DNA of 64,000 nucleotides, taken from contig JAGWBD010000002.1 of the NCBI GenBank assembly GCA_021296065.1, positions 1 to 64,000 of the forward strand, written 5' to 3'. The notes under the pieces were generated by a model. The model had not been told where the DNA came from. It saw nothing but the letters and a program-made list of their open reading frames with translations, and did no database searches. A program made the position numbers and the translations under genes. Of this stretch, positions 7,660 to 28,889 are shown in pieces. Numbering within the stretch: position 1 is the stretch's first letter; every line of letters begins with the position of its first letter. The stretch is from Anaerolineae bacterium (GTDB taxonomy: Bacteria; Chloroflexota; Anaerolineae; Aggregatilineales; Phototrophicaceae).

Positions 7660-7779
7660 TTTGCGGGGATTCCTGTTTCATGATCCGCTCATTTGTGCTA
7701 TTGTGCAGCTACCATTTGCGGAGCGTTAGTCGAATTCCATCAGTTACATGGCTCTTTGATCTTTTCATGGAGGCTTGCC

Positions 7780-8916
7780 ATGCCACAGGCCGGCGACGAA
7801 TTCTTCCAGAGCAAGGATTTCCACCCGTGGTCCCGGGTGAAGGATCAGATCTTGGCATCGTATGTAACTGCATATCTCGCCAAGATTTCCAAAAGACAAG
7901 CTGACATCATTCTCATTGATGCTTTCGCTGGTCCAGGCGTTACTGAAGATGGTGAGCCTGGTTCACCGCTGATCATTATTGGTGCGGCAGAAAGGCTTGC
8001 CAAAGGGCGTTACACAGCGTACTTCGTCAACAAAAAGCGGAAACATCATCGGAAACTAAAAAGTATTTTGGAATATAGGGGGCTGGCACACTCTGCAATT
8101 GCTGTTCTCGATGACGGGCCAACATACCTGAGCACCATTGCCCAAGACTTGGGCAGGGAATCTGTTCTGCTTTACGTCGACCCGTATGGTTTAAATTGTG
8201 CATTTGGGTATCTGGAACCTTTCTTGAATCGATCTCGCGCTTATAGCACAGACCTCCTTATTAATCTTCAGATTCCTGCTGCTCACAGGCTGGCAGCGAA
8301 AAACGCAACAAACAATGGCAAGTGTGTTACGGACCGTCTCAGCTCAGGACTTGAAAGGCTAACAAGAGCGTTTGGCGGAGATTATTGGAAGGAATTCATT
8401 TATTCAGATGAGAAACCAAACATACGTGAAAAGTTACTCGCAGATGAATACAAAAGGCGGTTGGCAAGTACCGGATATCTCACTTACACGGGAGTTTGCC
8501 CGATTCAGGAGTACAGGGGTGGAGCGACGAAGTATTACTTGATTTTTGCTTCAAGGCACCCTGATGCAATGGTCATTTGCAATGATGCAATGTGTAAGTC
8601 TGTTAACGAGTACCTTTATCATCAAGAAATGGGAGAGACACTTTTTTCAGATATTTCATGGAAGGATTGGCGCGACACGAGCGAACTCGACAGAGTGGTT
8701 GTTCGGTACGTCGAAACATTTCCTGGGCGCACTCGAAAGGACTTGTGGCTACCCATCATTCAGGACAATTTCATGAATTTCACCGAATCAGAATACAAAA
8801 AGTCAGTTTCTGCCTTGGTCAATTCTGGAGAAATCATTTGCACTACGCCTATTGGCAGCCCGCAACGAAAGACCAAACGACTAAACGACAACTGCGTGCT
8901 TGAACCGCGTAGTTGA
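7780..8916 (+). CDS. tcmP: Three-Cys-motif partner protein TcmP
   Basis: This 378-residue protein is of the TcmP family, which is recurrently found beside three-Cys-motif (phage Gp37Gp68-like) proteins. The biochemical role of the pair is not established. The N-terminal half looks like a Rossmann methyltransferase fold: 'DAFAGPGVTEDGEPGSPL' starts at residue 47 and 'LLYVDPYGLNCAF' has D134 of a DPYG motif. The C-terminal 80 residues resemble a winged-helix module (GRTRKDLWLPIIQDNF). The ATG at 7780 has GGAGG seven bases upstream; the open frame extends further back but lacks family similarity. The gene is strikingly AT-rich (23 G+C in the 60 bases 8041-8100, against 40 in 6601-6660), a sign of transfer. 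It converges on its partner gene, ending 3 bp from it. Confidence 0.85.
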   Translation: MPQAGDEFFQSKDFHPWSRVKDQILASYVTAYLAKISKRQADIILIDAFAGPGVTEDGEPGSPLIIIGAAERLAKGRYTAYFVNKKRKHHRKLKSILEYRGLAHSAIAVLDDGPTYLSTIAQDLGRESVLLYVDPYGLNCAFGYLEPFLNRSRAYSTDLLINLQIPAAHRLAAKNATNNGKCVTDRLSSGLERLTRAFGGDYWKEFIYSDEKPNIREKLLADEYKRRLASTGYLTYTGVCPIQEYRGGATKYYLIFASRHPDAMVICNDAMCKSVNEYLYHQEMGETLFSDISWKDWRDTSELDRVVVRYVETFPGRTRKDLWLPIIQDNFMNFTESEYKKSVSALVNSGEIICTTPIGSPQRKTKRLNDNCVLEPRS

Positions 8917-8919
8917 CGC

Positions 8920-9696
8920 TCACAACGGAAACTCGTCGCGCCACTCGTGCCACGCCAGATTGCCCTTGAAGAACACCGGGATGCCCTGGGCGTCCAGCAG
9001 CTCCAGCAGCGACTCCGTCCAGGCGGGTTGCGGCTGAAAGAGACGACGGCCGTTGGACGCCGCGCCGATGATGGCCCACTCGAAGGGTAAACGCTCCCTT
9101 TCTGCCAGCCAGCGCGCGAACACCGGCGCGGCATCGAACCACAGCGGCTCAATGCTCAGGAAACGCACGCTGGCCTCGATAGCCTCCATGTGGCGCAGGT
9201 AGGCCGACAGCGCGCGGGCCGCGCCCTTCGCGCTCATCGTATGCCCCGCCGGCAGGCTGACCCCTACCCAGACATTCTCCGGGAAGTCGAACTCCGGCAG
9301 GCGCAGCGGGTACTTGCTCAGGGTCTGGAAGGTGTGCCAGTGCGCCTCGCCCATCACGTCGAGCACCTGGACGATCTGCTCGCGCGGGACCCAGTGGCCG
9401 AAGAGGTCGGCCATGCTGCCGACGAAGATTCCGGCCGGGTCGCGCAGACGTAAGGGATCGTTCAGCGCTTTTGGTCGCCAGTAGTGATGCTCAAAGCCAT
9501 GCACGTAGGAGTTGCGGGCGATGCGTTCGGCGACGGTCTTGGCGTAACACTCGGTGACCGAACCGTCCGGCATCTCCCAGGTGCAGCCGTGCAGGCAGCC
9601 GCCCGTCGGGTTCCATGTGTAGCCGGGCAGCACCCTGCCATCCGCCTGGCGGATGCGCGTCCACTCGATGCCCTTCGGTGCCTTCTGCCGGTTCAT
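8920..9696 (-). CDS. Three-Cys-motif protein, Gp37Gp68 / DUF5131 family
   Basis: This is the partner of TcmP. The 258-residue protein carries the family's N-terminal cysteine cluster, C34-x3-C38-x11-C50, in the context 'WNPTGGCLHGC' and 'TECYAK'. It is reminiscent of an iron-sulfur/radical-SAM-like cluster, but its chemistry is unproven. The rest is TIM-barrel-like ('GIFVGSMADLFGHWVP', 'VWVGVSLPAGHTMSAKGAA', 'SIEPLWFD'). The ATG at 9696 has a strong ribosome site (aaggtggagcg). Base composition is GC-rich like the surrounding genome, unlike tcmP, and the two genes are convergent rather than tandem as is common. A palindrome overlapping its promoter suggests repression. Confidence 0.85.
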   Translation of the reverse strand: MNRQKAPKGIEWTRIRQADGRVLPGYTWNPTGGCLHGCTWEMPDGSVTECYAKTVAERIARNSYVHGFEHHYWRPKALNDPLRLRDPAGIFVGSMADLFGHWVPREQIVQVLDVMGEAHWHTFQTLSKYPLRLPEFDFPENVWVGVSLPAGHTMSAKGAARALSAYLRHMEAIEASVRFLSIEPLWFDAAPVFARWLAERERLPFEWAIIGAASNGRRLFQPQPAWTESLLELLDAQGIPVFFKGNLAWHEWRDEFPL

Positions 9697-9720: not shown

Positions 9721-9753
9721 GCAAATGTTCTAACATTTGCGAGCGTTTGTCAA
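9721..9753 (-). promoter_or_regulatory. Promoter with palindromic operator for the three-Cys gene
   Basis: On the minus strand a consensus -35 TTGACA (9748-9753) is followed after 17 bp by a weak -10 GAACAT (9725-9730). The -10 region is covered by the inverted repeat GCAAATGTT-CT-AACATTTGC (9721-9740), with nine-base arms. Two direct copies of gagcgtttg lie at 9741-9749 and 9767-9775. The layout is that of a repressor operator; the repressor is not identified. Confidence 0.5.
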
Positions 9754-10631: not shown

Positions 10632-10714
10632 ACGCGCCCCTCCCCCAGGTGCCGCGCCATTGTAGCGAGGGCCCCCGCCCGAAGCATCCTGCAAGGGTAG
10701 CGAGGAGAGTCCAG

Positions 10715-10832
10715 TTTACTGGATACAGAAACTGGATGGGGTGAGCGTCATCATGCGGTTATTTGCGTCGCTACAGTTGTGGCTGGTTCCAGGCGTGGGC
10801 AATTTCTGAAATCCGCCAAACTGGCCACGCCC
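10715..10832. repeat. 118-bp dispersed intergenic repeat, copy 1
   Basis: This segment matches 58982-59099 in the same orientation over 118 bases without gaps, with 11 mismatches by direct comparison. It begins 'tttactggatacagaaactg' and ends 'gccaaactggccacgccc'. At the left end of this copy CCAGTTT and AAACTGG (10711-10735) can form a stem. Short peptides can be read through both copies, but the substitutions show no coding pattern I can support. The element lies in a 366-bp gene-free stretch (10632-10997) upstream of the aminotransferase. Confidence 0.85.
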
Positions 10833-10851
10833 GGCGACATGCTGTGCCCGC

Positions 10852-10971
10852 GGGCGACATGATATGTCGCCCCTACACCACCAAAACAATTCACAGCATC
10901 ACTGTAGGGGCGATTTATCAAATCGCCCGACCTGCCGTCATGTCGTACGCGGGCGACATGATATGTCGCCC
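10852..10971. repeat. Cluster of three 21-bp REP-like palindromes
   Basis: Three perfect palindromes with nine-base arms and a three-base centre lie in a row. They are GGGCGACAT-GAT-ATGTCGCCC at 10852-10872 and again at 10951-10971, and GGGCGATTT-ATC-AAATCGCCC at 10908-10928. The last also occurs, with the same 'ctgtag' lead-in, at 54080-54100. The cluster fills the remainder of the gene-free stretch before 10998. These look like REP-type extragenic elements, not CRISPR units: spacers are unequal and arms differ. Confidence 0.85.
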
Positions 10972-10997
10972 CTGCACCGTCCGCCGCAAGGGACGCT

Positions 10998-11399
10998 TTA
11001 GTCAGCCGCCAGTTCCCAGCGCAGAGCGGGCGTCAGCGTTCGCAATTCGGCCTGTACGCGCGCCACTTCCGCCGCGTCATCGCGGTCGGCGAGGAGCACG
11101 CGCAGCTCACGGCGGGCGGGCGCGGCCTCGCGCGCGGCGGTGGCCACCTTCGCCTTGTAACCGAGGCGACCGGCCTGCGTCGCCGCGCGCAGCGTGTCCC
11201 AGAGCGCGTCGATCTCCGCGCCGTCTGCGCTGGCGCGCAGTTCGGCGGCGCGGCGCGTCGGGCCGGGACGGAGGTCGGGCGGGGCCTTGGCCTCCAGCCA
11301 GTAATTGCCACGGATCTGTGAGGGCCGCGCCTGGTCGTCGTGCGCCACACGCGCCCGTTGCACCAGTTGAATCAGGTCGATATCGGGACGCTCGCTCAC
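10998..11399 (-). CDS. Small conserved protein, putative phosphothreonine lyase-like domain (DUF1917/Bles03-like)
   Basis: This is a 133-residue soluble protein. Two stretches resemble the family annotated as putative phosphothreonine lyase domain proteins: 'IRGNYWLEAKAPPDL' and, near the centre, 'IDALWDTLRAATQAGRLGYK' followed by AKVATA. Members of that family are normally annotated with little functional evidence, so no reaction is claimed. The C-terminal third is rich in Ala and Arg and may be helical. The start is a GTG at 11399 with a weak AGG upstream. It is divergent from the phage portal gene, 88 bp away. Confidence 0.6.
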   Translation of the reverse strand: MSERPDIDLIQLVQRARVAHDDQARPSQIRGNYWLEAKAPPDLRPGPTRRAAELRASADGAEIDALWDTLRAATQAGRLGYKAKVATAAREAAPARRELRVLLADRDDAAEVARVQAELRTLTPALRWELAAD

Positions 11400-27217: not shown

Positions 27218-28082
27218 GCTGGCGGGCGCCAACATCGCCGCAAGGGAGCGTGAGCGCGCCCAAAACTGGAGCCGCCGGGCACTCTACGTCGCGCTGATCG
27301 CGCTGGTCGTGGTCTACTCGGTGCCGACCTTCGGCGTGCTGCTCAGCTCCGTCCAGCGGGACCGCGAAATCTCGCGCCACGGCCTCTGGCGCATTCCGGA
27401 CGAGATCACGCTGGAGAACTACGAGCGCGCCCTCGGCGGCACCAACGTGCCCAACTACCTGCTTAACTCGGTGGTCGTCACCGTGACGGCGACGGCCGTC
27501 TCAATCGCCTTCGGCGTGCTGACCGGCTACGTCTTCAGCCGCCTCGCCTTCCGCGGCAGCGAAATTCTCTACCTGATCGTGGTGGCCGGCCTCTTCTTCC
27601 CGCCGCAGATCGTGATCATCCCGCTGCAACAGCTATTCAGCCGCACAATCATCAACGACACGATTCTGGTGCTCATCGTGGTGCACGTCGCCTTCGGCCT
27701 GCCCATCACCACCATGCTTCTGCGCAATTTCTTCTCGACCATCCCCGGCGCGCTGCGCGAGGCGGCCATCATCGACGGCGCCAACGAGGGCCAGATCCTG
27801 CTGCGCGTGATGGTGCCGCTGGTGTTGCCGGCGCTGGCCGTGCTGGCCACGCTGCAGTTCACCTGGATCTGGAATGACTTCCTCTGGCCCTTCATCCTGA
27901 TCAAGAACGACGCGGCGCGCACCATCATGGCCGGCATCGTGCTGCTCAAGGGCCCCTATGACAAGGCATGGGGTCTGCAGGGCGCGCTCTCGGTGATCGC
28001 CAGCCTGCCGACCCTGCTGATCTTCCTCTTCTTCCAGCGCTACTTCATCCGCGGCCTGACCTTCGGGGCGGTGAAGGGGTAA
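27210..28082 (+). CDS. Carbohydrate ABC transporter permease (MalG type), second system
   Basis: This is a 290-residue partner permease. After a charged N-terminus, a first span (ALYVALIALVVVYSVPTFGV) is followed by five more. The EAA loop reads 'ALREAAIIDGANEGQILLRV' (about residues 185-204), and the protein ends with the common 'FIRGLTFGAVKG'. The ATG at 27210 lies inside the end of the previous gene, indicating translational coupling. It ends the uptake operon. The next promoter, for the DUF2335 pair, lies about 50-75 bp downstream, so read-through between the two is possible. Confidence 0.92.
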   Translation: MTELAGANIAARERERAQNWSRRALYVALIALVVVYSVPTFGVLLSSVQRDREISRHGLWRIPDEITLENYERALGGTNVPNYLLNSVVVTVTATAVSIAFGVLTGYVFSRLAFRGSEILYLIVVAGLFFPPQIVIIPLQQLFSRTIINDTILVLIVVHVAFGLPITTMLLRNFFSTIPGALREAAIIDGANEGQILLRVMVPLVLPALAVLATLQFTWIWNDFLWPFILIKNDAARTIMAGIVLLKGPYDKAWGLQGALSVIASLPTLLIFLFFQRYFIRGLTFGAVKG

Positions 28083-28120
28083 GCAGCAAAATAGCACTCA
28101 CCAACCACTTAATTTCCAAG

Positions 28121-28159
28121 TGTACAATTGTTGCCACAGATGGTTGGCTGGTCTATAGT
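28121..28159 (+). promoter_or_regulatory. Promoter of the DUF2335 pair, with upstream GTACAATT motif
   Basis: TTGCCA (28131-28136) and TATAGT (28154-28159) are spaced by 17 bp and lie 30 bp before the ATG at 28189. Directly abutting the -35 is TGTACAATTG (28121-28130), containing the same GTACAATT core as the two IclR-region operators. This may be chance or may bring the pair under related control. Confidence 0.55.
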
Positions 28160-28188
28160 GTCAGACTTGTATTGGGTGGGAGGACAAG

Positions 28189-28419
28189 ATGGGAGCTGAG
28201 CGGTTGCGCAGCAGAATTCATCTGTTCGCACGCCCGTCGTTTCTCACGGGAGTGGCACGGGTGATAGATTTTGGTGGGGTATTGAGTTCTTACAATGTGT
28301 CACCCTCTAACCGAGAAGCAGATTACTACGCCTCCTTGTCTGACTGGCTGTCAGTAGGGGACGACTTAGAATTCGCTCTGGAGCAATATGAAGAAACTAC
28401 ACATGAGGCTACACCGTGA
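28189..28419 (+). CDS. Small protein paired with DUF2335 membrane protein
   Basis: This is a 76-residue, acidic, apparently soluble protein. Its core 'VARVIDFGGVLSSYNVSPSN' followed by 'ADYYASLSDWLSVGDDLEFA' resembles small proteins I know to precede DUF2335 genes; no function is known. The ATG at 28189 has 'gggaggacaag' upstream. The gene overlaps the next one by four bases (GTGA). It lies in an AT-rich islet unlike the rest of the window, which suggests acquisition by transfer. Confidence 0.65.
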   Translation: MGAERLRSRIHLFARPSFLTGVARVIDFGGVLSSYNVSPSNREADYYASLSDWLSVGDDLEFALEQYEETTHEATP

Positions 28420-28889
28420 CGGACAGCCAAGGTGACATTGATGATGTCGAGGCTCGACCTGAAAAGCAAGTCACTACAACTGTCACTCAAGTAGAGACAC
28501 GTTACTCGGGCCCTATTCCGCCACCTAGTGCCTTGGCCAAATATGAAGAGATTATGCCGGGCAGCGCCGATCGCATACTACGTATGGCTGAGACACAGGC
28601 ACAACATCGACAAAGCCTAGAATCCACTGTAATTGCTTCAGATGTGTGGACTGAAAGGGCTGGACTGGTCGCAGCAGGTTTACTTGGTGCGATAATCCTT
28701 GTCGGAAGTATTTGGCTTATTGGCAGCGGTAGGGATGTGGAAGGGTTCGTGATAATAATAGGAGAAAGTATCTTATTCCTAAGCGTTTTCTTCTATTCAC
28801 GAAAGAGAAGGCAAATTGAAAGAAGCCAGCAACAAGAAATGCTAATTGCTGCCCGTGAAGGACGCGAATCTCTCCGAGAGGATGTCTGA
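28416..28889 (+). CDS. DUF2335 family membrane protein
   Basis: This is a 157-residue membrane protein. The hydrophilic N-terminal half contains the DUF2335 signature 'IPPPSALAKYEEIMPGSADR' plus 'ILRMAETQAQHRQ'. Two closely spaced membrane segments follow ('AGLVAAGLLGAIILVGSIWL' and 'VIIIGESILFLSVFFYS'), and the C-terminal tail is basic and helical. The start is a GTG at 28416 overlapping the upstream stop. It is very AT-rich: 20 G+C in bases 28741-28800. DUF2335 proteins are scattered in mobile regions of bacteria; their role is unknown. Coupling to the small upstream gene argues that the two act together. Confidence 0.85.
   Translation: MTDSQGDIDDVEARPEKQVTTTVTQVETRYSGPIPPPSALAKYEEIMPGSADRILRMAETQAQHRQSLESTVIASDVWTERAGLVAAGLLGAIILVGSIWLIGSGRDVEGFVIIIGESILFLSVFFYSRKRRQIERSQQQEMLIAAREGRESLREDV

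Follow-up and report, generated by a model that had tools for sequence, protein, structure and literature searches.

The TcmP and DUF5131 families recur side by side in bacterial genomes, and the pairs they form have family names and no known function. Here we describe a pair in which one gene is exchanged and the other is kept. In the window, a stretch of 64,000 nucleotides from an Anaerolineae genome, tcmP occupies a site at which unrelated alleles have taken its place, with only this one gene exchanged, and DUF5131 has been inherited with the chromosome. We lean, if only slightly, towards explaining the pair as a two-gene antiphage system with a constant DUF5131 and an exchangeable TcmP; the exchange is observed directly, and the defence role and the chemistry are inferred. 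The pattern of exchange separates the partner that diversifying pressure acts on from the one that serves as the fixed enzyme.

Replacement of tcmP at one chromosomal site

The tcmP gene (7780–8916, + strand) runs from an ATG at 7780 to a stop codon ending at 8916 and encodes 378 amino acids. Its product matches TIGR04474 over residues 16–273 (E=1.7e-36, 126.5 bits against a curated cut-off of 53), which places it in the family, and it is type 1 of the six TcmP types that we find in this slot. The constant partner (8920–9696, − strand), a three-Cys, radical-SAM-like gene, encodes 258 amino acids and belongs to PF07505/DUF5131 (phage Gp37/Gp68), with a match over residues 27–251 (E=1.1e-32, 113.9 bits against a gathering threshold of 28.9). 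Its PHROGs class is phrog_2045, a function-unknown entry, and the model of the radical SAM mobile pair protein A (TIGR04471) reaches just 32.1 bits here against a curated cut-off of 355. The sequence-only reading that drew attention to this locus had described a convergent pair with a 3-bp gap, AT-rich in tcmP and GC-rich in its partner, and the measurements agree: 3 bp separate the two stop codons, and the GC content is 0.466 for tcmP, 0.662 for DUF5131 and 0.655 for the window. The difference is also seen at third codon positions (GC3 of 0.47 versus 0.87), and tcmP is the GC minimum of the 64 kb (mean 0.655, SD 0.042 over segments of 1137 bp). The source is a metagenome-assembled genome of 2.82 Mb, in 178 contigs and 85% complete, which carries one copy of each gene above the cut-offs.

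Upstream of DUF5131, in its promoter region, lies an inverted repeat, GCAAATGT-TCTA-ACATTTGC (9721–9740). The sequence CATTTGCG is found twice upstream of tcmP (7658 and 7713) and elsewhere on the + strand only at 9734.

Two congeners carry the same site, G400 (locus L223, JAPPOB010000007.1) and G401 (L222, JAPOVC010000018.1). In all three genomes the gene order is M3 peptidase, tcmP, DUF5131, aminotransferase. The conserved left neighbour, the M3 peptidase (PF01432; 5809–7608, + strand), is 92% identical to its counterparts in both congeners; the class IV aminotransferase on the right (PF01063; 9786–10694, − strand) is 85–86% identical, a MATE transporter 87–88%, and the DNA flanking the pair 86–88%. 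DUF5131 follows its surroundings, with 90 and 93% identity between the window and the congeners and 87% between G400 and G401. The TcmP proteins are 17%, 22% and 19% identical in the three comparisons, i.e. they are the products of three unrelated genes.

The edges of the exchanged piece can be placed closely. On the left, flank homology with both congeners stops at 7701, the last base of a conserved promoter-like stretch, CGCTCATTTGTGCTAT (7686–7701, + strand); as CGCTCATYTGTGCTAT this stretch is common to all three congeners, and it ends 79 bp ahead of the tcmP start. On the right, homology resumes within the last 30 bases of DUF5131, at 8927 in the comparison with G401 and at 8949 in that with G400. 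The exchanged piece is therefore tcmP alone, set behind a resident promoter-like stretch. The window allele is 45–53% identical to alleles of other genera (loci L224, L227, L229, L230 and L238) and 36–45% identical to tcmP genes from other families in the phylum (G222, G013, G022 and G228), which adjoin a DUF5131 with a CX6CX2C motif.

That the pair as a whole had recently entered an empty site was considered and rejected, as other tcmP alleles occupy the site in both congeners. An apparent absence of tcmP from these congeners, obtained when searching with the window TcmP alone, was a limit of sensitivity; the family profile found the genes there. Accompanied by DUF5131 genes that are almost the same, the three tcmP genes form a natural allele set in one genetic background, and a direct swap experiment is therefore feasible.

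A phage portal gene (PF04860; 11404–12897, + strand) and a capsid-family gene (PF05065; 16003–17916, + strand) lie amid host metabolic genes near the pair, and both congeners share the portal region with a DNA conservation of about 87%. An intergenic repeat lies at about 10654–11000, and partial copies of it are found by the dozen in all three genomes of the genus.

Exchange, gene order and composition among relatives

How general is the exchange? Named genomes scanned with the DUF5131 subfamily yielded 64 loci, of which 53 (L222–L274) belong to the subfamily at an identity of at least 43%. Forty-four of these have tcmP, four end at a contig edge and five lack tcmP despite having room for it. 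Among the five, L250 is surrounded by phage-like replication genes (DnaB-like, helicase and DNA methylase, by reading), L267, L271 and L273 have other genes in place of tcmP, and L270 (3752–4797) holds a frameshifted DUF5131 with no adjoining tcmP, where the pair seems to have decayed together.

After leaving out three loci with a TcmP shorter than 230 amino acids and adding the window, 42 pairs were available for typing. They fall into six TcmP types, which are the same whether the identity threshold is set at 0.30 or 0.35 (a threshold of 0.40 separates one member and gives seven), and the mutual identity of the types is roughly 14–26%. In 859 of the 861 comparisons DUF5131 is the more similar of the two proteins, and the two sets of identities correlate at 0.10. 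On an IQ-TREE phylogeny of DUF5131, whose bootstrap is not fully settled, TcmP type changes 18 times (minimum 5), and shuffled labels give a mean of 19.1 changes, with values as low in 54 of 200 shuffles; the types are scattered on the tree like shuffled labels. The phylogenetic check proposed with the sequence-only reading thus shows differing histories for tcmP and DUF5131 within the subfamily, and congruent vertical descent is not seen.

For 100 pairs of loci with a DNA-homologous flank beyond tcmP, the TcmP type differs in 75, and the aligned fraction is 0.2% for tcmP against 88% for DUF5131. In 202 ordered pairs, the median point at which homology breaks off is 46 bp inside the DUF5131 stop, and the median point of its return is 68 bp upstream of tcmP, both being approximate BLAST edges. 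The loci L230 and L238 share tcmP genes that are 90% identical (dS 0.36) beside DUF5131 genes that are 81% identical (dS 1.19); since the dS of tcmP is the lower one, tcmP has moved alone. Within this type dN/dS is about 0.16, and for both genes it is well below 1 in the usable comparisons (one ratio was unusable and one came from a near-identical pair). A clean swap is also found in another family of the phylum, in a tandem pair with a CX6CX2C partner: between G133 and G010/G149, DUF5131 is 90–91% identical, TcmP 20–21% and the flanking DNA 88–91%, with one edge of the swap just ahead of tcmP and the other within the opening codons of DUF5131.

Some counts point the other way. In a set drawn from the phylum, plasmids and phages, a related TcmP is kept in 17 of the 20 close DUF5131 pairs (above 75% identity, among the 55 members other than the window). 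With the window included (56 members) there is a weak correlation between TcmP and DUF5131 identities (r=0.27), a value that 0 of 2000 permutations reached, and this implies some joint descent of the two genes. The exchange of tcmP is thus not universal.

Among 400 genomes of the same phylum, tcmP is matched in 82 and DUF5131 in 100 (E<=0.001). The pairing script took 96 tcmP rows and 99 DUF5131 rows from these searches; the rows omitted were a second tcmP fragment and those with the weakest DUF5131 matches (E of 3.4e-6 or weaker, except one at G136). A DUF5131 match lies within 3 kb of 58 of the 96 tcmP matches; the other 38, contig ends included, have none at that distance. In orientation, 47 of the 58 pairs are tandem (25 with tcmP first, 22 with DUF5131 first), 10 are convergent, including the window, and one is divergent; at the G310 locus two tcmP genes have one DUF5131 in common. 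Outside the phylum, convergent pairs are found in the Gordonia phage Jablanski, where the pair sits between the immunity repressor and the integrase, and on a Streptomyces longhuiensis and a Nocardia plasmid; the pair on a plasmid of Streptomyces sp. A144 is tandem. Closer to the window, the order is fixed: the pairs of its taxonomic family are convergent in 18 of 18 cases (window not counted), as are all 44 named loci of its DUF5131 subfamily with both genes, two sets that overlap.

The composition of the pair is likewise widespread. The tcmP gene has the lower GC content in 54 of the 57 phylum pairs other than the window, with a mean difference of 0.065, and in 43 of the 44 subfamily loci, so both the convergent order and an AT-rich tcmP are the norm in the subfamily. 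These surveys reshape part of what had been proposed from the locus itself. The convergent order can no longer be regarded as an anomaly, nor can a lower-GC tcmP serve as general proof of two sources. What remains unusual is the size of the window difference (−0.195), which is extreme and matched by just 1 of the 57 other phylum pairs. Of the proposed alternatives, replacement of one member or assembly from two sources, the former is borne out by an orthologous DUF5131 (87–93%) beside unrelated tcmP genes at the same site, and the unlike composition fails as a sign of the latter. A shift typical of tcmP had been named as a finding that would weaken the proposal, and the shift is largely of that kind. 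We also note a second AT-rich dip in the window, at 27850–28889 (GC about 0.5), where a gene for a DUF2335 membrane protein lies (28416–28889).

The two genes also occur in viruses and on plasmids. Of 50,697 phage records, 127 match DUF5131 and 5 match TcmP, the TcmP search being the less sensitive one. None of 80 viral DUF5131 loci (L292–L371) has a TcmP match within about 4 kb, using a profile built mostly from this phylum, and therefore the virus version seems to work without TcmP. Thirteen of the 80 have the CX3CX11C spacing of the window protein, and type-1 tcmP was absent from the viral scan. In Mycobacterium phage Estave1, DUF5131 is found among methyltransferase, HNH and helicase genes. 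On the Sinorhizobium meliloti plasmid pSymA (L291, 10221–13266), DUF5131, TcmP and a second, oppositely oriented TcmP stand in a row; the adjoining 845-aa gene is presumed to be hna from the gene numbering in the accessible part of PMC12445080.

Predicted folds of the two proteins

The AlphaFold2 model of DUF5131 (pLDDT 87.7) is closest to spore photoproduct lyase (Z 13.7, rmsd 3.1, 204 aligned residues), followed by RlmN (Z 11.8) and viperin (Z 10.7). We therefore predict a radical-SAM barrel for this protein. Its three cysteines, C34-x3-C38-x11-C50 (CLHGC...ECYAK; 9547–9597, − strand), are spaced CX3CX11C in 22 of 22 family members, in place of the canonical radical-SAM motif CX3CX2C. Across the phylum, plasmid and phage set, 54 of 56 DUF5131 proteins have CX6CX2C, and the related L275 and L276 proteins have CX3CX2C, so that the spacing varies within the family. 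Radical-SAM enzymes with other cysteine spacings are known, and the CX3CX11C motif therefore lowers the likelihood of membership without excluding it. The sequence profile of DUF5131 has no match to any radical-SAM structure in the PDB, and a PDB sequence search with the protein gave chance matches only. On the strength of the model, we infer that DUF5131 is a [4Fe-4S] radical-SAM enzyme of the spore photoproduct lyase/RlmN kind that would act on a nucleic-acid base.

The sequence-only reading had suggested a methyltransferase-like fold for TcmP and pointed to the residues DPYG, and here the predicted structure agrees. The AlphaFold2 model (pLDDT 89.8) is best matched by RlmJ (Z 16.6, rmsd 3.2, 217 aligned residues), and we predict a class I methyltransferase fold with an RlmJ-like arrangement. 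A TcmP profile also ranks RlmJ first among PDB sequences, with a weak match (E=0.15) over the D-x-x-AG-x-G and GSP motifs; the PDB sequence search with TcmP itself returned no relative. In an alignment of 38 TcmPs, K21, D47, G53, D134 and G137 are invariant. Two of these, D47 and G53, delimit a stretch resembling the SAM-binding motif I (DAFAGPG; 7918–7938, + strand), and D134 and G137 enclose DPYG at the position of motif IV (residues 134–137; 8179–8190, + strand), where P135 is conserved in at least 90%. The corresponding motif of N6-adenine methyltransferases, the RlmJ family among them, is DPPY, and position 137 is a glycine in all 38 TcmPs. Having DP-x-G in place of DPPY makes catalysis by TcmP doubtful, and the protein may bind SAM without carrying out the N6-adenine methyltransferase reaction. 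The model thus suggests an RlmJ-like, SAM-binding and presumably nucleic-acid-binding partner.

A candidate defence pair, its rivals and known systems

From the evolutionary pattern and the company of the genes, we consider the pair to be probably a defence system; the earlier suggestion of a nucleic-acid modification or defence role is plausible. At the level of single-model matches, both genes hit the A and B models of the PADLOC candidates PDC-M41 and PDC-M30, and they are adjacent. As described in the available part of its source, PDC is a candidate list derived from guilt-by-embedding; there, PDC-M30 is reported in 32 of 100 Pseudomonas aeruginosa strains, 68.8% of which were phage-resistant (PMC10855318), a correlation along with which many other systems are carried. 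The company in other replicons gives further hints of defence, namely the S. meliloti row beside the presumed hna and the Jablanski pair between repressor and integrase. The immediate neighbours of the pair in the window are metabolic genes, with no other defence genes, and this counts against a defence role. Also weighing against it are the limited generality of the exchange, the occurrence of either gene in places where the other is missing (38 of 96 phylum tcmP matches, 80 of 80 viral DUF5131 loci) and the weak or absent profile links to RlmJ and to radical-SAM structures. In the open-licence PMC literature, as far as its text was accessible, we found mentions of the families in tables (PMC12429752, PMC12445080) and in the PDC survey and no experiment on any member; descriptions of tcmP exchange were likewise absent from that literature.

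How might such a pair work? An incoming tcmP allele replaces a piece that starts just downstream of the resident promoter-like stretch and reaches the 3′ end of DUF5131. The new TcmP could bring the radical enzyme to its target or sense the invader, and DUF5131 would then carry out radical-SAM chemistry on a nucleic-acid base. This division of labour, in which TcmP targets and DUF5131 reacts, is a tentative proposal that we rate as rather doubtful. One DUF5131 subfamily stands beside six TcmP types, and therefore any contact between the two would use features common to all types, or the partners would share a substrate. A swap of tcmP may change the target range or allow escape from phage inhibitors, in parallel with the exchange of hsdS alleles beside constant hsdM and hsdR. 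Where a recognition part is under phage pressure, whole-gene replacement of alleles beside a constant enzyme is expected, as is established for hsdS exchange in the sources available to us.

The nearest rival is a pair for nucleic-acid repair or modification, acting e.g. on a damaged or unusual base, with no part in defence, where tcmP would vary with the lesions or substrates or through carriage on mobile elements. In its favour are the predicted resemblance of DUF5131, first to a DNA-repair enzyme (spore photoproduct lyase) and next to RlmN, the viral genes without TcmP (0 of 80) and the Estave1 copy amid methyltransferase, HNH and helicase genes. However, in-place exchange for unrelated alleles is not usual among housekeeping repair partners, tcmP is present in only about a fifth of the genomes of the phylum (82 of 400) and the pair has the status of a PADLOC candidate, so we judge repair unlikely. 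A toxin–antitoxin pair, in which one member neutralizes the other, is improbable: adjacent genes with a patchy distribution would suit it, and L270 looks as if both had been lost together, but six TcmP types with one DUF5131 subfamily are unlike a matched binding pair, each gene stands alone elsewhere and both have predicted enzyme folds. Even less credit is due to the idea that two genes of different origin are neighbours by accident and share no function. It is true that GC differs (0.47 versus 0.66) and that tcmP alleles do come from elsewhere; yet the convergent order is the same in 44 of 44 subfamily loci with both genes, a DUF5131 match lies no more than 3 kb away for 58 of the 96 tcmP matches in the phylum, and tcmP is missing with room to spare in just 5 of 53 subfamily loci, one of them amid phage-like replication genes and one a broken copy. 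Very fast evolution of tcmP with no replacement, which would account for the lower similarity of TcmP in 859 of 861 comparisons, is hardly credible given the separate clusters of the six types, their spread on the DUF5131 tree, the low dN/dS within a type (about 0.16 for L230/L238) and a window tcmP that is 45–53% identical to those of other genera but 17–22% to those of congeners sharing 90–93% of DUF5131.

Returning to the antiphage reading, its fullest form would be a new immune pair: a constant radical-SAM enzyme acting on nucleic acid, with its target set by a TcmP that derives from a methyltransferase and is exchangeable as a whole gene. Single-gene alleles would circulate between genera behind a resident promoter, and viruses would keep the lone enzyme, possibly for self-protection or counter-defence. 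Taken with all its parts, this remains a speculative picture, possible but in our estimate not the probable one. If the defence reading is true, radical-SAM chemistry on nucleic acid joins the known antiphage activities, with specificity changed by whole genes.

In comparison with known families and systems, the window pair passes the cut-offs of both TIGR04474 and PF07505, and its DUF5131 differs from 54 of 56 relatives in having CX3CX11C where these have CX6CX2C. PDC-M41 and PDC-M30 are likewise two-gene pairs; the allele exchange, the fixed convergent order and the CX3CX11C motif found here are not part of the candidates' descriptions in the portion of the source available. The predicted fold of DUF5131 resembles those of spore photoproduct lyase and RlmN (Z 13.7 and 11.8), and it differs from both in sequence (about 10% identity, another cysteine spacing and no sequence-profile match). 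TcmP has the predicted fold of RlmJ, a 23S rRNA A2030 N6-methyltransferase (Z 16.6, with the weak profile match), and differs in having DP-x-G instead of DPPY and an extra C-terminal part. The closest likeness in mode of action, judged from the accessible sources, is to Type I restriction-modification, where a constant enzyme gene also stands beside an exchanged partner gene. The pair is not itself of this type: there is no hsdM or hsdR beside tcmP, whose neighbours beyond the pair are the M3 peptidase and the class IV aminotransferase. Compared with hsdS exchange, a whole gene is replaced here, and the exchanged partner has a predicted methyltransferase fold.
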